A DNA stretch of 64,000 bases from Tenggerimyces flavus (GTDB taxonomy: Bacteria > Actinomycetota > Actinomycetes > Propionibacteriales > Actinopolymorphaceae). Position numbers and translations under genes: made by a program. Under the pieces are notes generated by a model. That model did no database searches. It was not told where the DNA came from and worked only from the letters and a program-made list of their open reading frames with translations. The DNA is taken from NCBI RefSeq assembly GCF_016907715.1, contig NZ_JAFBCM010000001.1:1426001-1490000 (forward strand), written 5' to 3'. Below, in pieces: positions 6,051 through 51,201 of this stretch (positions within the stretch are counted from its first letter, which is position 1; each line of letters opens with the position of its first letter).

Positions 6051-6891
6051 GCAGCTCCGGTCGCCACCGGTCCGCGGTCAGGTCGTAGGCGCCGAAGTCG
6101 GTGCCGAAGTCCCAGGAGGCCCAGCCCATCCCGTACTCCTCCGCGAGGGAACGAACGTGCGTGAGCCAGCGCGCGCGGGTGGGGAGGTCGACGGTGTTCA
6201 GGACGCCGAACTCGCCCAGGAACAAGGGGCGTCCCCAGGAGGCGGCTCGGGCGAAGTCCGCGCGGACGGTCGCGTAGTCGTCCTCGGAGCCCCACGATCG
6301 CGCGGGCGTGACCAGCTCGGCGGGCAGCCACGGAGCGCCCTGGTGGGTGAACTGGAACGGCGAGTAGTAGTGCACGGTCACCGCCACGTTCTCGTCGTCC
6401 GGCACGGACAACGTGGGCAGTGCTTCGAACGTGTTCCAGAGCATCGGACCGACCAGCACGAGCCGGTCCGGGTTACTCGAACGGACCACCGCCAGTGCCT
6501 CGGCCAGCAGCTCGTTCCACTGCGACGAGGTCATCGGCTCGTGCGGCTCGTTCAACAGCGCGAGATGCAGCTTCGGCGAGAACGGAGCGAAGTGCTCCGC
6601 CAGCGATCCCCACAGCGCAAGGAAGTCCGCCCGGTGAAGTGCGACGTCGGCGGACAGCTCGTCGTAGTGGTGCACGGTCACGACGACGTCCAGCCCGCGG
6701 CTGAGCGCGCCCCGCACGACCTCGTCCACCCGCGCGAACTCCGGCCGGCGCGGCGACCACCGCACCGGCAGGCGGACGAGGTTGAAGCCGGCCTCGACCA
6801 CCACGTCGAGGTGGTGGTCGAGGATCCAGTCCCGCCCGCCGTCGAGCGCGCCGCCGAAGTTGATCCCGCGCCAGGCCGAGAGATCGCGCAT
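6028..6891 (-). CDS. Glycoside hydrolase family 5 (cellulase-like)
   Basis: A 287-residue (beta/alpha)8 glycosidase. It opens with WRGINFGGALDGG, the usual first strand of GH5, followed by GFNLVRLPVRWS. The acid/base glutamate is in LALLNEPHEP (the NEP motif) and the nucleophile is in LFLGEFGVLN; HYYSPFQFTHQG supplies the active-site His and Tyr. There is no signal peptide, so the enzyme looks cytoplasmic and would cut imported oligosaccharides. ATG 6891 is chosen because the family starts there and GAGG lies 9 nt upstream. It is downstream of the ManD-like gene on the same strand, with a strong inverted repeat in the gap. Confidence 0.88.
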   Translation of the reverse strand: MRDLSAWRGINFGGALDGGRDWILDHHLDVVVEAGFNLVRLPVRWSPRRPEFARVDEVVRGALSRGLDVVVTVHHYDELSADVALHRADFLALWGSLAEHFAPFSPKLHLALLNEPHEPMTSSQWNELLAEALAVVRSSNPDRLVLVGPMLWNTFEALPTLSVPDDENVAVTVHYYSPFQFTHQGAPWLPAELVTPARSWGSEDDYATVRADFARAASWGRPLFLGEFGVLNTVDLPTRARWLTHVRSLAEEYGMGWASWDFGTDFGAYDLTADRWRPELLTALLPQ

Positions 6892-6973
6892 AGAACTAGC
6901 CTCGGGATTTCCTGTGTTGGTGGTCGCCTTACCGGGCCAGTGACCCCATGACCTGGCGTCCATCCCACGTCAA

Positions 6974-7009
6974 GGGGCCAATGATCATGTAAACATGATC
7001 GTTGGCCCC
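6974..7009. promoter_or_regulatory. 36-nt inverted repeat between two sugar genes
   Basis: Two 17-nt arms (6974-6990 and 6993-7009) pair with a single T:G wobble around AA; the arms begin GGGGCCAA and meet at CATGTAAACATG. It lies 50 bp after the stop of the ManD-like gene and 82 bp before the GH5 start. As RNA it is a very strong hairpin but lacks a T tract. As DNA the inner part (ATCATGTAAACATGAT) looks like a GntR- or LacI-sized operator. Terminator and operator roles are both possible. Confidence 0.55.
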
Positions 7010-7059
7010 AGGGCGGGCGGGGCCGGCCGGTCGAACCAACGCCGGAGGCAAGGTCGAGG

Positions 7060-8301
7060 CTAGGGCTTGACGACCGTGCCGTCGCGGCGGCGGATCTCCG
7101 GCCAGGCGCCGTTGTACGGGTGCTCCGGGAACGGGTACTTCGCCGCCAGTGACTCGTCGATGTCGATGCCGAAGCCCGGTTGCTCGTTCGACCACATCGC
7201 GCCGTCGCGGATCTCCGGGCAGCCCGGGAAGACCTCCCGCGTCCGTTCCCCAAAGAGGTGCGCCTCCTGGATGCCGAAGTTCGGCACCGACAGGTCGAGC
7301 TGCAGCTGCGCCGCGTGCCCGACCGGCGAGGTGTCGCCCGGTCCGTGGAACGCCGTCCGCACGCCGAAGTACTCGCACAGCGCCGACAGCTTCCGCGCCG
7401 GCGTGAGGCCGCCGATGTCGGAGATGTGCACGCGGATGAAGTCCAGAAGCCGGTCCCGGATCAGCGGCACGTACTCGTGCACATTGACGTAGAGCTCGCC
7501 GATCGCGATCGGCACCGCCGTCTGCGCCCGCACCATCCGCAGGTACTCGTTGTCCTCCGGCGCGAACATGTCCTCCAGGAAGAACAGCCGGTACGGCTCG
7601 AGCTCCTTCGCGAGCTGGATCGCCATGATCGGCGGCACCCGCTCGTGCACGTCGTGCAGCAGCTCGACCTCGTCGCCGAGGGTGTTGCGCAGGTGCTCGA
7701 ACAGCCGCGGCACCAGCAGGCAGTACGGCCGCGGCTCCCACGCCTTCTCCTCGACCTTCAGCCGCGCCGACTCCGACGGCTTCGGGTTGGTGCTCGGCAC
7801 GCTCTGGGACGAGCCGACACCGTACGTCGAGTAGCCGGTGACCTCGATCTGCGCGCGTACGTGGCGGAAACCCTGCTCCAGGTACGCGCGCGCGTTGTCC
7901 TCGACCTCGCGAACGTCCGACCCGTTCGCGTGCACGTAGACATCGGCGGCGACCCGCGACTTCCCGCCGAACAACTGGTAGACGGGCACGCCGAACTGCT
8001 TGCCCTTGATGTCCCACAACGCCGAGTCGACGCCGCCCATCGCGTTGTTGAGGACGGGTCCGCTGCGCCAGTACGACGAGACGAACGAGGCCTGCCAGAT
8101 GTCCTCGATCGCCGCCGGGTCACGGCCGACCAGGAACGGCTTGAGGTATTCCTCGATCGCGGTCACCACGGCCAACGGGCGTTGGGTGAACGTCGCGCAA
8201 CCCAGCCCATACAGGCCCGGCTCGTCCGTCTCGACCTTGACGATGACGAGCCGGATCCCGTCCGGAGCGGTACAGATTGCCTTGACGTCGGTGATCTTCA
8301 A
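7060..8301 (-). CDS. RspA/ManD-type enolase-superfamily dehydratase
   Basis: A 413-residue member of the mandelate racemase/muconate lactonising group, closest in motif layout to D-mannonate/D-gluconate dehydratases (starvation-sensing protein RspA). Metal and catalytic residues appear in order: LLHDVHERVPP (Asp and His), FFLEDMFAPED (Glu), VPIAIGELYVN (Glu) and FHGPGDTSPVGHAAQ (His). Most ManD enzymes are ~400 residues. It would remove water from a C6 sugar acid to give a 2-keto-3-deoxy acid. The start is TTG 8301 with GGGAG 9 nt upstream. Only 13 bp separate it from the lipoprotein gene, so the two are co-transcribed. The true substrate cannot be fixed from sequence. Confidence 0.85.
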   Translation of the reverse strand: MKITDVKAICTAPDGIRLVIVKVETDEPGLYGLGCATFTQRPLAVVTAIEEYLKPFLVGRDPAAIEDIWQASFVSSYWRSGPVLNNAMGGVDSALWDIKGKQFGVPVYQLFGGKSRVAADVYVHANGSDVREVEDNARAYLEQGFRHVRAQIEVTGYSTYGVGSSQSVPSTNPKPSESARLKVEEKAWEPRPYCLLVPRLFEHLRNTLGDEVELLHDVHERVPPIMAIQLAKELEPYRLFFLEDMFAPEDNEYLRMVRAQTAVPIAIGELYVNVHEYVPLIRDRLLDFIRVHISDIGGLTPARKLSALCEYFGVRTAFHGPGDTSPVGHAAQLQLDLSVPNFGIQEAHLFGERTREVFPGCPEIRDGAMWSNEQPGFGIDIDESLAAKYPFPEHPYNGAWPEIRRRDGTVVKP

Positions 8302-14451: not shown

Positions 14452-14841
14452 ATGATCGATCACGAAGTTGCGTTCGTCGTCCTCACCGACCGGGTTGGGC
14501 GGGTGTTGATGCAACACCGTGGCCATGACAAGCGTGCGGAACCGGGACGGTGGTCGCCGCCAGGTGGACTGGTTGAGCCGGGGGAGGACGCCCTGACCGC
14601 TGCCCACCGTGAGCTGCTGGAGGAGACCGGGCTGACCGCCACCCTTGAGCTCTGTCGGGTGCTGGAGCAGGTCGGTGCTGACGGAACCGGGATCCGCCTC
14701 CATGTGTTCGAGGGCAGCACCGACGCCCGCCAGGAAGACGTCGTCCTCGGCGAGGGGCTCGCGATGCAGTTCCTCACCCTCGAGGAGATCGAAACCAAGG
14801 AACTCGCCAGCAACGCCTGGGCGTTGCTCGGCCGGGAGTGA
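14452..14841 (+). CDS. Nudix hydrolase
   Basis: A 129-residue Nudix-fold pyrophosphohydrolase. The full Nudix box is present: the Gly of GGLVEPGEDAL, then AAHRELLEETGL, giving GX5EX7RELXEEXGL with the Mg-binding glutamates. It opens with VAFVVLTDRVGRVLMQHRGH, the usual first strands. Such enzymes cleave nucleoside diphosphate derivatives; the substrate is not predictable here. ATG 14452 fits the domain start and the leaderless promoter geometry; ATG 14422 would add 10 residues. Confidence 0.9.
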   Translation: MIDHEVAFVVLTDRVGRVLMQHRGHDKRAEPGRWSPPGGLVEPGEDALTAAHRELLEETGLTATLELCRVLEQVGADGTGIRLHVFEGSTDARQEDVVLGEGLAMQFLTLEEIETKELASNAWALLGRE

Positions 14842-15476
14842 CGGCGCATCCGATCATGGACCCCAACCGTCCCAAGTGCGATCGATACCACCCATGGACA
14901 TCACCCGCCGTCAGCAGCACCTGCCGAACGCGATCGTTCGCGTATTTCCCCGCGGCGGGGTCGTTTCGGCCGGGTGACGCGGCGTCTCATCGGCTTGCCA
15001 TGGGTCCAGTTCCAGCCGTACGCGCACCTCGGCGAATGCGGGGAGGACGTCGGTAGGCCGTGTGTTGACCACCGCTTGTACGTCGGGCGGTGCCGGTGCG
15101 GGCGGAACGATGTCCGGGTCACTTCTCTTCCGCGCCGCGCCCATCCATCTCACCGTTACGTCACTCACTGGGCCGCAGCATCACCCTCGCCCTCTCCTGG
15201 GCAGCCGTCATTGCCACCCGCACGCTCTTTCATCCAGTGCGCTTCGTCATCTTGCGCGCCTCGTCATCTTGCGCTGCGCGCGACCATCGCTCCATTCCCT
15301 GGCCCCGCGAGCCCCGTTTGCTCTGACCCTCTCCGCCATCGTCGCTTGCGCGGTCGCTCTCACCTCTCTCGACTGTCACTCCCATCCTCTTCACCTTCGC
15401 TCCTTTGGGGGCGGTGCTGTGCTTCTGTTCTTGCTGTTTTTTTCCCTGCTGTGCTTGGGCGGGCTAGCTGGTCGGG
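14842..15476. other. Gene-free, pyrimidine-rich tract
   Basis: No convincing gene. From about 15180 to 15470 the plus strand is strongly C+T-rich, unlike anything else in the window, and includes a tandem copy of TCGTCATCTTGCGC (15244-15257 and 15261-15274). A short minus-strand reading frame (15168-14911, 85 codons) has no recognisable motif. The tract runs directly into the structured repeat at 15477. Confidence 0.5.
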
Positions 15477-15705
15477 CTGTGGCGGCGGTCGAGTGTGGTG
15501 GCCGGTCCGGGGCGCGTCAAGGGCGCCTCTCTGGGGCGCTTCGCGGAGGAGAGAGGCGTCGCTTCGCGACCGCTTTGCGGCCCTTGACTCGCCCCGGTCC
15601 GGCCACCTGTTTTTCACGCGCCGCCCCTGCCCCCCGGAACAGTTCCCGGGGACAGGCCTGCCTGCGCCTTGGGTTTGTGGCCGTGTTGCGGCTGCTTGTG
15701 GGGCC
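15477..15705 (+). repeat. Structured dispersed repeat, copy 1
   Basis: This ~229-bp sequence recurs at 50458-50688. It folds into an outer stem of two 27-nt arms (15497-15523 with 15581-15607, two mismatches), an inner stem CGCCTCTCT/AGAGAGGCG (15524-15532 with 15550-15558) capped by a loop with GGGCGCTTCGCG, a small hairpin GTCGC-TTC-GCGAC (15558-15570), and a 3' hairpin at 15626-15656 (CCTG..CAGG with inner GGAA..TTCC). It ends with GCTTGTGGGGCC. It lies 85 bp before the DUF222/HNH gene. Compared with copy 2, the inner stem has different bases but still pairs. Confidence 0.8.
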
Positions 15706-15789
15706 CGCCGTTGTTTGTGGTGGCGGTGATGTCGGGGATTCCCCTTACGATGTTGGGCATTAAGCCGATTCTCTTGGTAGAATTCTGCT

Positions 15790-17046
15790 ATGGAATCGAC
15801 CACCTGCTCGAACACCACCGGCACCGCTACTGGTGGTGTGTCGGCGTGGTCGATGACCGACTCCGAACTCACCACCGCGCTCCTCGACAACGCCACCCAG
15901 CTGAACCAGCTTCAGGGCCGCCGGGTCGAGCTCATCCGCGAAGCCGACGCTCGCAACGTCGGCGTCGCGGCTGGTGCGGCGAACACCCAGCAGTGGGTCG
16001 CCGGCCTCCTGCACGTGACCACCGCGGAGGCGGGTGGCCTGGTGAAGCTGGCCCGGCACCTCGATGCCGACCTTCCCGCCACGACCGCGGCTCTACAAGC
16101 AGGGGAGATCTCTCTCGACCATGCCCGGGTCGTCTCCAAGACCGTGCACCTGCTGCCGTCGGAGGTCTCCACCCCCGAGCTGCGGGCCCGCGTGGACGCC
16201 ACTCTTGCCGAGGAGGCGAAGACCTTCGACGCCAGAACTCTCCACACGGTCGGCAACCATGTCCTGGACAACATCGACCCCGACCTCGCCGACCACGTGT
16301 TGGAGAAGAAACTGACGCGGGAAGAGGCGCGGGCGCACCGGGACAGGTTCTTCCGGATGGGCTGGGACGAGACCACCGGCACCTGGCGGGTCGCCGGCCG
16401 GTTGCCGAAGGTGGTCGGGGAACGCCTCAAACTCGTCCTCGACCCGTTGGCCGCGCCGCAGTCCGGCCCCGACGGACGCGACACCCGTACCCCCGAACAG
16501 CGCTACGCCGACGCAATCGGCGAAGCCTGCCGCCGGCTGTTGGCCGAACAGCTCGTTCCCTCCCACGGCGGGAACCCCACCCAACTCGTCATCACCGTCA
16601 CCCGGACCGGCGGACGCACCCTGCACACCGGCATCGAACTGTCCCGCAAACTCGTCGAGCAGTTGATGTGTGAGGCCGACCGCGCGTTCTTGGTCAAGCC
16701 CGACGATCAGCCCGGCCGCGTCAGCATCCTCACCGACACCCAACAACGACTCTTCCAAGGCAAACTCCGCCGCATCCTCGAGCTCCGCGACGGCGGCTGC
16801 GCCTTCCCCGGGTGTGACCGGCCACCCGGCTGGTGTCACGCCCACCACGTGGTCCCGTGGAGCAAGGGCGGACCCACCACTCGGGACAACGGGGTTCTGC
16901 TCTGCGGCTACCACCACCGCCTGATCCACCAAGGCGCCTGGCAGGTCCGCATCGCGCTCGATGGGTTACCCGAGTTCTTACCCCCGGACTGGATCGACCC
17001 CCAGCGACAACCACTTCGCCATCACCGCCTCACCCCGGCCGCCTAA
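15790..17046 (+). CDS. DUF222 / HNH endonuclease (13E12-repeat type)
   Basis: A 418-residue protein of the actinobacterial DUF222-HNH family, the same type as the REP13E12 proteins of Mycobacterium. DUF222 covers about residues 20-300 (ARNVGVAAGAANTQQWVAG, DLPATTAALQAGEISLDHAR). The HNH nuclease follows at ~335-390: CAFPGCDRPPGWCHAHHVVP, then WSKGGPTTRDNGVLLCGYHH, with the two Cys pairs, the catalytic His pair, Asn and final His. Such genes are often repeated in actinomycete genomes; their role is not established. There is no clear Shine-Dalgarno; a small palindrome AGAATTCT sits at 15779-15786. A structured repeat lies upstream and an IS110 element directly downstream. Confidence 0.9.
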   Translation: MESTTCSNTTGTATGGVSAWSMTDSELTTALLDNATQLNQLQGRRVELIREADARNVGVAAGAANTQQWVAGLLHVTTAEAGGLVKLARHLDADLPATTAALQAGEISLDHARVVSKTVHLLPSEVSTPELRARVDATLAEEAKTFDARTLHTVGNHVLDNIDPDLADHVLEKKLTREEARAHRDRFFRMGWDETTGTWRVAGRLPKVVGERLKLVLDPLAAPQSGPDGRDTRTPEQRYADAIGEACRRLLAEQLVPSHGGNPTQLVITVTRTGGRTLHTGIELSRKLVEQLMCEADRAFLVKPDDQPGRVSILTDTQQRLFQGKLRRILELRDGGCAFPGCDRPPGWCHAHHVVPWSKGGPTTRDNGVLLCGYHHRLIHQGAWQVRIALDGLPEFLPPDWIDPQRQPLRHHRLTPAA

Positions 17047-48968: not shown

Positions 48969-49618
48969 TTCCCGTGTCCTGGTTTCGGGAGGCGCGCCTT
49001 GAAGTCGGCGGCCTCGTCTGGGGTGAGGTAGGGATGGGAGTAGAGGTCGAGCAGGACGCGCGCGAGGAGATACTCGCCCTCCTTGCTGAACGGGTCGACG
49101 CCGAGCCGCCGCCCGATGTGGGGGTGGAGGAGCGCGATGGAGAGCGACATCGCCGCGGCCACGGTGGCGCGTTCGTTCGCCGAGGTGTCCGGCTCGTCCT
49201 CGCGTTGGCGGTCGCCCTCATCCATCCACTGCGCGCTCAGGTCGGCGAGCGTGTCGAAGAACTGGGTGGCCCGTCCCTCGACGAGCGCGCGGACGACGTA
49301 CTGCCTGAACGGGCCGAACGCGGCTCCCGCGATGCCGACGTAGTTGATGCTCCCCTGGCTGTCGTCGGCCTTGACCTGCTCGTTGATGCGCTCGATCGCC
49401 CGGGCGAGGTAGGCGTCACAGGCGTCGCGGAGCGCTTCCTTGGAGCCGAAGTGGTGCCTGACGAGCCCCTGGGAGACCCTCGCCTCCTCGGCAATGCCCC
49501 GCATGGTCGCCTTGTCGAACCCGAGCTCCCCGAACTGCCGCATAGCCGCATCCCGAATCCTCGCCTGAGCGGTGAGGTCCTCCGAGTCGACTATCCGATC
49601 GTATAGCGGACTATCCAC
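48965..49618 (-). CDS. TetR-family regulator of the ABC exporter operon
   Basis: A 217-residue repressor. [20 protein letters not shown] and [20 protein letters not shown] form the TetR helix-turn-helix; the C-terminal ~150 residues are the ligand domain ([19 protein letters not shown]). It is the first gene of the operon, and its stop overlaps the ATPase start by 4 bp (ATGA). The start GTG 49618 lies inside the palindrome CTATCCA-CA-TGGATAG, so the protein would block its own transcript, and with it the exporter, until a drug-like ligand binds. Confidence 0.92.
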
Positions 49619-49626
49619 ATGGATAG
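49611..49626. promoter_or_regulatory. Probable TetR operator overlapping the start codon
   Basis: CTATCCA and TGGATAG (7-bp arms, CA spacer) form a 16-bp dyad that contains the GTG start of the TetR gene. A further ACTATCCG half-site lies at 49590-49597, so more than one dimer may bind. Confidence 0.5.
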
Positions 49627-49667
49627 CCTACTACGCACTCGGGCAGTGTGGGGAAGGGTGGTCAGAG

Positions 49668-49785
49668 GATTGTGGAAACCTTGGGTCGCTATAGCGCCCA
49701 TAGTTTCCACAATCTTCGGTCGGCGAGCGGCCACGGGATGAGCGCGAAGACTTTTGGTCGCTATAGCGCTCATACTCTTCGGGCT
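49668..49785. repeat. Twin hairpins with conserved CGCTATAGCG loop
   Basis: Two hairpins share the loop motif GGTCGCTATAGCGC(C/T)CATA. The first has a perfect 12-bp stem GATTGTGGAAAC (49668-49679 with 49703-49714); the second a 10-bp stem with one mismatch, AGCGCGAAGA (49741-49750 with 49776-49785). The loops are nearly identical while the stems have unrelated sequence but still pair. The self-complementary core could be a dimeric protein site or an RNA kissing loop. Confidence 0.65.
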
Positions 49786-49944
49786 AACGAGAATGGCGAC
49801 GGCCACCCCTGGCGGTGGCCGGGGTGTGGCCGCGGGAGGTGAGTGCGTGAAGCTGAGCGTCTTTGGATCTCAGCGCTTCTGCTCGAACCGGGTCGCCACG
49901 GGGCACGGGTGGGCAGGCGCAGCCTGCCCTTAACGACCTGCGTC

Positions 49945-50084
49945 GGGCCGCCGAGAGGCTCAATGTCAAGGGTCAGGTCGCGCAGCGACCTGATCTCGCA
50001 CAAACTCGCCCACCGACCGCGCCAGCCATGCACTGCCGCGAGTTTGGGCGAGACGCGAAGCGCCCTTGACATTGAGGGCGGCCC
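49945..50084 (-). repeat. Structured repeat, divergent third member
   Basis: An outer stem of 14 bp (CTCAATGTCAAGGG, 49959-49972 with 50063-50076) extends by 8 bp (49945-49952 with 50077-50084) past a 6-nt bulge. Read on the minus strand it has the same order as copies 1 and 2: outer arm ending GTCAAGGG, then GCGCTTCGCG, an inner stem (CTCGCCCA/TGGGCGAG), a hairpin GGTCGC-TGC-GCGACC, then CCCTTGAC. The outer and inner stem sequences are otherwise different. Confidence 0.6.
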
Positions 50085-50174
50085 ATAAACTCCCGAGGCG
50101 ACCCATCAGTAGGCGATCTCGACTCCGCACGCCGACAGCTCCCCGCGCAAGGTGGAGCTGCGCGACTGACAACC

Positions 50175-50378
50175 GAGTCGAAGACCGACACCCGGCATCG
50201 CGCGGAGGTGCCGCGCGGACCCCAGTCGAGCCGAGGCCGCTCACTTCATCGCGCGGGGGTCCTGTGCAGGCCCCAGCCGAGTCGATGACCGACACCTCTC
50301 ATCGCCGGAGGTACTGGGCGGACCCCAGCCGAGCCGGTGGCCGCACATCTCGCTGCGCGGAGGTGCTGCGCGCTGGCG
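50175..50378. repeat. Four-copy ~52-bp degenerate tandem repeat
   Basis: Units begin with GAGYCG at 50175, 50228, 50279 and 50331 (steps 53, 51, 52). Each has a CGCGGAGGTGC-like middle, and three have GGMCCCCAGYC at the end. There are no unique spacers, so it is not a CRISPR array. The units alternate slightly (GAGTCG, GAGCCG, GAGTCG, GAGCCG), as if a two-unit block had been copied. Confidence 0.6.
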
Positions 50379-50431
50379 TGGGCTCGAGAGAGCTCGACTT
50401 TGGTCAGCTCTTCACTGTTGCGACAGACACC

Positions 50432-50456
50432 CCCCGAGAGTTTGGTGCTCTCGGGG
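50432..50456. terminator. 9-bp hairpin before repeat copy 2
   Basis: CCCCGAGAG and CTCTCGGGG enclose a TTTGGTG loop directly before the dispersed repeat at 50458. No gene ends nearby, so it is probably part of the structured island and only formally a terminator-like stem. Confidence 0.4.
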
Positions 50457-50457
50457 A

Positions 50458-50688
50458 CTGTGGCGGCGGTCGATGGTGGTGGCCGGTCCGGGGCGCGTCA
50501 AGGGCGCCGTTTGGACGGGCGCTTCGCGCAGATTTGGCAAACGACGTCGCTTCGCGATCGTTGACCCTTGACTCGCCCCGGACCGGCCACCTGTTTTCAC
50601 GCGCCGCCCCTGCCCCCCGGAACAGGTGTCCGGGGCAGGCCTGCTTGCGGTCCAGGTCTGCTGCCGTGCTCGCGTCGCTTGTGGGGCC
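50458..50688 (+). repeat. Structured dispersed repeat, copy 2
   Basis: Matches 15477-15705 over its length. The outer stem is 50478-50504 with 50565-50591 (one mismatch in 27). The inner stem is CGCCGTTTG/CAAACGACG (50505-50513 with 50538-50546, 8 of 9 pairs), replacing CGCCTCTCT/AGAGAGGCG in copy 1. The hairpin GTCGC-TTC-GCGAT and a 3' hairpin CCTGCCCC/GGGGCAGG are kept, as is the final GCTTGTGGGGCC. No DUF222/HNH gene follows this copy. Confidence 0.8.
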
Positions 50689-50814
50689 TTCCCCCGGTCT
50701 CTTGTGGCTCGGATGAAGCCCGGGGGTTCCGTCCCTATCCATGCCTGCGTGTAGTTGAGGGTGCGGCGGGTACGGGCTCTTGGTCCGCCTCAAGTCGAGT
50801 CACGAGGAGTGCCC

Positions 50815-51201
50815 ATGCTTGGCCCCGACGACCGCCGGCGTGCGGAGATCGAAGAGACCGAAATGACCGAGAAGGCCGACCCTGCGGCCTCTTTCCACCC
50901 TGTCTCGCCGTGGAGCTATCCGGTCGAGCGCTACTACTATCCCTGGGCTCTGGCCGAGTACATCGCCAACCCCGAGCCGAGCGATCACAGTATCAAGTCG
51001 ACCGTTGTCCAACGCCTGAAGGAGAATCCGCACACCAAGGATGACACGATCAAGGTCGACGTCAAGCAGCGTGTCGTGATCCTCGGTGGTGAAGTCTCGT
51101 CCTGGTTGGCCAAACGCGCCGCCGGTGACGATGCCTGGGACACCGCTGGGGTGGTCGACGTCAGCAACCAACTGCATACCCCCGAGCAGCCGCGGCCGTG
51201 A
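50815..51201 (+). CDS. BON-domain protein
   Basis: A 128-residue protein. The C-terminal ~75 residues fit a BON domain: STVVQRLKENPHTKDDTIKV, then VKQRVVILGGEVSSWLAKRA and DVSNQLHTPEQ. BON domains bind lipids or membranes and are common in stress proteins. The N-terminal part is aromatic-rich (SPWSYPVERYYYPWALAEYI) with no signal peptide. ATG 50815 has CGAGGAG 6 nt upstream; ATG 50863 is the alternative. Its stop overlaps the next start (GTGA), beginning a three-gene operon. Confidence 0.8.
   Translation: MLGPDDRRRAEIEETEMTEKADPAASFHPVSPWSYPVERYYYPWALAEYIANPEPSDHSIKSTVVQRLKENPHTKDDTIKVDVKQRVVILGGEVSSWLAKRAAGDDAWDTAGVVDVSNQLHTPEQPRP

Follow-up and report, generated by a model that had tools for sequence, protein, structure and literature searches.

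Twin hairpins and the surrounding mosaic

The window, which is the whole 64,000-nucleotide stretch of Tenggerimyces flavus DNA analysed here, contains at 49660-50740 a spacer that is a mosaic of twin hairpins, other inverted repeats, tandem units of 51-53 bp and a module of about 294 bp (Table 1). The twin hairpins described in a first-pass annotation of this DNA do exist, share the exact sequence GGTCGCTATAGCGC, and lie, as that annotation had placed them, upstream of a TetR-exporter operon, at a distance of 50-170 bp from the TetR reading frame. This proximity is what speaks for the twins regulating the neighbouring operon, as operators or as RNA, a role that we regard as extremely improbable, given that the same pair adjoins unrelated genes at many loci and that the TetR gene start has its own pair of GACTATCC palindromes, which are a likelier candidate for the TetR operator than the hairpins. 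On the same two grounds, the binding of TetR to the hairpins, as the annotation had proposed it, was rejected.

Table 1. Repeats and palindromes in and beside the mosaic spacer (positions in the window).
Feature	Position	Strand	Description
Direct repeats at TetR gene start	49589-49628		Two 20-nt imperfectly palindromic repeats, GACTATCCGATCGTATAGCG / GACTATCCACATGGATAGCC
Hairpin A	49665-49717	+	Palindrome GAGGATTGTGGAAACCTTGGGTCGCTATAGCGCCCATAGTTTCCACAATCTTC; 12-bp outer stem, inner GGG-CGC/GCG-CCC stem, TATA loop
Hairpin B	49737-49789	+	Palindrome GATGAGCGCGAAGACTTTTGGTCGCTATAGCGCTCATACTCTTCGGGCTAAC; same orientation as hairpin A, 72 bp downstream of A
Mosaic middle	49790-50441	.	Inverted and direct repeats; recurs together with the hairpins at several other sites
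Short hairpins in mosaic middle	within 49790-50441		CGGCCACC..GGTGGCCG
Paired arms in mosaic middle	49959-49972/50063-50076		CTCAATGTCAAGGG arms
Inverted repeat in mosaic middle	49994-50009/50038-50053		16 bp
Tandem units in mosaic middle	50150-50343 (also given as 50150-50372)		51-53 bp, degenerate
Module 3	50442-50735	.	Dispersed non-coding repeat, about 294 bp; 27-bp inverted arms 50478-50504/50565-50591 (GGTGGCCGGTCCGGGGCGCGTCAAGGG)

The 1.08-kb unit is present in about six near-complete copies in the genome, at 75-84% identity. BLAST matches within other mosaic copies shift by about one tandem unit. Module 3 also occurs alone, with more than 30 copies among the matches listed, and six copies in the 464-kb genome sample on which the repeat census rests extrapolate to about 110 per genome. 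At the loci L073-L092, most module 3 copies are followed by the palindrome TTTGAATGAAGGGCACCTTCATTCAAT and then by AGGTTCGAATGAAGGTGCCCTTCATTCAAA, so that these mosaics contain another family of hairpins as well. Sequence from two further spacers of the window (6891-7059 and 14841-15852) recurs in other spacers of the 464-kb sample. Some loci hold the hairpin alone, with only about 50 bp shared, which makes it the smallest unit in common. The many nested inverted repeats, and the copying of the 1.08 kb as a unit, are features that a large structured non-coding RNA would have, but this reading of the whole unit is very improbable, as the 3' module and the hairpins also occur apart, the tandem section varies, an Rfam search of 49500-50900 gave no match at or above the gathering score, and a sigma-70 scan, whose scope leaves out other promoter types, found no promoter-like site.

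Relationship between the two hairpins

Judged by their sequences, hairpins A and B are two subfamilies of one palindrome of about 50 bp, paired over nearly its whole length. The stems had been taken as unrelated because GATTGTGGAAAC was set against AGCGCGAAGA, which is out of register; once aligned correctly, GATTGTGGAAAC and GAGCGCGAAGAC are homologous arms. The left arms are identical at 7 of 12 positions and the right arms at 4 of 12, and overall 32 of 48 aligned columns are identical, one of these being a shared gap column. Perfect-palindrome copies at 5673137 and 4088605 (GYGGAGACTTTTGGTCGCTATAGCGACCAAAAGTCTCCACG) are intermediate between the A and B forms. What had been read as a loop belongs to the palindrome as its inner half, in which GG(G)TCGC pairs with GCG(C)CC and leaves TATA unpaired, and the hairpin element is thus one near-continuous palindrome. 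As pairing inside the palindrome takes up CGC/GCG and leaves UAUA alone exposed, the kissing interaction envisaged in the first-pass annotation is unlikely.

Scored with the covariance model R1, hairpin A reaches 67.3 bits and hairpin B 71.6 bits. The folding of hairpin A stands out from shuffles on both strands (z of -7.0 on the + strand and -7.3 on the - strand), and that of hairpin B does so modestly (z of about -2.7 on both strands); the stem of B includes one G-G mismatch (AGCGCGAAGA / TCTTCGGGCT), and its lowest-energy fold on the + strand is an alternative pairing. Hairpin A has DNA relatives at 2828330, 3486308 and 7933125 in the same genome, and many copies of hairpin B are found across it.

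Covariation of the stem

The fold of the palindrome has clearly been preserved by evolution. An alignment of 24 hairpins, gathered by sequence similarity without a structure model, shows two-sided changes in 9 of 17 pairs and has a covariation score of 0.342 versus 0.176 when shuffled, a value reached by none of 500 shuffles. With 51 sequences from several genomes, two-sided changes are seen in 18 of 21 pairs, 89.9% of the cells pair and again none of 500 shuffles does as well, though this larger set leans to structure because it was collected with the covariance model, as the 24-sequence set was not. At columns 13/46, an A-T pair and a G-C pair replace each other on both arms together within single genomes (27:24). 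Counted as a gauge of RNA versus DNA, mismatches of the G-U type number 64 versus 20 of the A-C type overall, where relatives were oriented by the RNA model, and 14 versus 8 in the genome of the window. The selection on structure suspected in the first-pass annotation is supported by these compensatory changes, which lie far above the shuffles, and by the retention of the hairpin at two orthologous sites where the flanks have diverged. Its picture of a loop conserved while the stems change freely is wrong, as GGARACTT/AAGTYTCC can be recognised as the stem in different genomes and what varies between them is the centre (GGTCGCTATAGCGACC in the genome of the window, CGGGGGCTATGACCCCCG and GGGGTGCTATAACACCCC in relatives).

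Distribution within and among genomes

A genome-wide search for the motif GGTCGCTATAGCG found it 17 times in the 8.52-Mb genome, in line with the annotation's expectation of a recurring motif, and found its reversed-pattern control not once. The covariance model gives 51 matches in the same genome (G000), which correspond to at least 26 hairpins at 16 loci, most of them matched on both strands, and ten of these loci carry twin hairpins. The R1 search covered 38 genomes, with 104 matches in G001 (about 50 copies), 8-12 in each of the sister species G002, G005 and G006, one weak match in G004, a few in other genomes and none among the 13 Kribbella-like genomes searched. Within the same taxonomic family, the palindromes are present in four of seven genomes, being sparse in three and reaching about 50 copies in one.

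Two forms occur in G001, one GATTGTGAAGACTTTGGGGTGCTATAACACCCCAAAGTCTTCACAATC-like and the other GATCGTGAAGGATTTTCGTCGCTATATGACGAAAATCCTTCACGATC-like, and the copies of the sister genus (g2) have the form GAAGTGTGGAGACTTACGGGGGCTATGACCCCCGTAAGTCTCCACACTTC. The 36-nt g2 core is identical in G233, which belongs to another taxonomic family and in which the flanks are unrelated. Three GGAGACTTTCAGGCACCACGTGCCTGAAAGTCTCC-like palindromes in the more distant G020 (L195, L197, L199) keep the outer GGAGACTT/AAGTCTCC and differ in their centres. A further palindrome, GGATTCTTCCGCGGAAGAATCC, adjoins the hairpin in G002 (L172), and part of it is found in G006 (L179). Neither an exact 19-mer of the family nor the g2 core pattern was found in scans of the genome contig collection, which may omit near-identical records, and a literature search for the literal motif strings returned nothing relevant. 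A plasmid or phage origin was rejected, there being no similar DNA in the plasmid or phage collection.

Insertion and retention

At one hairpin locus of G001, the spacer between two conserved genes is 712 bp long, whereas the same gene pair is only 38-141 bp apart in five relatives, and the mosaic was thus most simply inserted in G001. The insertion comprises the whole mosaic carrying one copy and not the 50-bp unit alone. The comparison of occupied and empty sites reveals no target-site duplication, exact boundary or defined ends, and no transposase is present among the flanking genes scanned. Orthologous hairpins are kept at two sites in G002, G005 and G006, in three species at one site and in two at the other; at the second site, G005 and G006 differ by one loop base and their flanking spacer aligns poorly. 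For the genome of the window, the loci at 7933 and 7941 kb provide no clean empty site because the twin sits at the edge of synteny. Taken together, the insertion, the orthologous retention and the G233 core suggest spread followed by retention, and gene conversion among the copies could also account for their likeness.

Genomic position of the copies

All copies that could be placed are intergenic (0 of 53 genic by codon-bias-based gene calls in one set and 0 of 18 in another). In relatives, 25 of the 46 classified copies lie between convergent genes, versus 39 of 242 spacers (16%) in a background taken from the 464-kb sample of the window's genome and not from the relatives (p 1.4e-7). Convergent gene pairs are enriched beside the copies. 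The excess is weak in the genome of the window alone (6 of 14 loci, p 0.02), and the repeat-bearing spacers of the 464-kb sample as a whole show the same bias, with repeats in 16 of the 39 convergent spacers, in 9 of the 131 tandem ones and in 4 of the 72 divergent ones. For g2 and one more distant genome, eight of ten classified sites are convergent, several of them 20-90 bp from both stop codons. The neighbouring genes are diverse, including SOD, gyrase B-type protein, sigma factor, Ku, Ddl, M20 peptidase and MFS genes, and flanking genes of so many kinds make a single regulon unlikely.

Such placement between two stops would also be expected of ordinary bidirectional intrinsic terminators, made alike through copying by recombination, and a stem-loop preference for convergent spacers has been described in all bacteria by Petrillo et al. 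(PMC1590033). However, T tracts follow only 2 of 154 arm ends, and the palindromes are therefore not canonical intrinsic terminators; in the window, a terminator scan calls neither hairpin A nor hairpin B. At one orthologous site a separate GC-rich terminator-like hairpin stands beside the copy, and the sequence is conserved beyond the needs of termination. We consider ordinary terminators an unlikely explanation, albeit one that carries some weight.

The palindrome might instead be recognised as DNA by a dimeric protein that binds at many places in the genome, such as a nucleoid-associated or domain-boundary protein, the pairing being a by-product of dyad symmetry. The symmetry does run along the whole length, the g2 core is the same over 36 nt in distant genomes, hairpins are conserved at orthologous sites, and the palindromes are AT-rich relative to the genome (51% GC versus 66-69%). 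Yet several positions, columns 13/46 among them, switch pair type on both arms, which is unusual for the site of a fixed protein, and the copying of the palindrome inside larger mosaics and its enrichment between convergent genes also speak against a DNA site, which on the whole seems rather improbable.

Origin of the twins and comparison with known elements

The best reading of these observations is that of a REP/BIME-like repeat, mobile in its history. The palindromes are very probably dispersed repeats, and the twins are probably two subfamily copies of a palindromic intergenic repeat of about 50 bp that works like REP/BIME elements. We hypothesize that the copies were disseminated either as non-autonomous elements or within recombining mosaics, perhaps by some enzyme acting in trans, and that they would persist between the facing 3' ends of genes, being harmless there and able to form RNA hairpins that may help to terminate or protect transcripts coming from either side. 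The pair would owe its place upstream of the TetR gene solely to a mosaic having landed in a divergent spacer. That the palindromes act as 3'-end RNA hairpins is a tentative and somewhat doubtful part of this reading, or they may simply be tolerated at transcript 3' ends. Counting against the REP/BIME-like reading are the failure to find a mobilising enzyme, the observation of insertion for the whole mosaic only, the weak convergent excess in the genome of the window, and the divergent spacer in which the window's own twin copy sits. A more far-reaching proposal, which we hold to be unlikely, is that one actinobacterial family has its own sequence-specific palindrome family, which spread without RAYT or REP tags, became fixed at the 3' ends of genes through selection, is read by a DNA-binding protein or an RNA-level 3'-end mechanism, and spread horizontally to other families (G233).

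Among known elements, bidirectional intrinsic terminators resemble the palindromes in where they lie and in forming a hairpin, most of all in the sister genus, and differ in that the palindromes lack T tracts and form a conserved sequence family. Like MITEs, the repeats are non-coding and dispersed, with a lineage-specific insertion of several hundred bp, but neither defined ends nor a target duplication were found here, nor was a parent transposase among the flanking genes scanned. With REP/BIME elements they have in common short intergenic palindromes in many copies (26 hairpins at 16 loci, about 50 in G001, 0 of 53 genic), singles as well as pairs, covarying stems, a preference for convergent or unidirectional spacers, embedding in mosaics, and a patchy occurrence between species. 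REP elements are defined by a GTAG/CGTC tag, to which the GTAG type adds a RAYT (PMC3733652). The palindromes, by contrast, are without such a tag at their stem ends (GTAG 1 and CGTC 4, versus about 9 expected, in 77 copies, at no fixed position), their unit is about 50 bp rather than 20-40, and their host is an actinobacterium, a phylum not mentioned by that name in PMC3733652. The genome of the window likewise differs in having no Y1 (RAYT-type) transposase by a PF01797 search (0 matches; control positive in five named genomes). Since the tag was looked for at the stem ends and the RAYT in the genome of the window, and neither was found, our classification of the palindromes goes no further than dispersed intergenic palindromic repeats. 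Repeats of the REP-like kind, together with RAYT transposases, are well described in Proteobacteria. A conserved, dispersed palindrome family in another lineage, without a detected RAYT, offers a case in which the manner of spread of these repeats, and the reason for their retention at gene 3' ends, can be tested.
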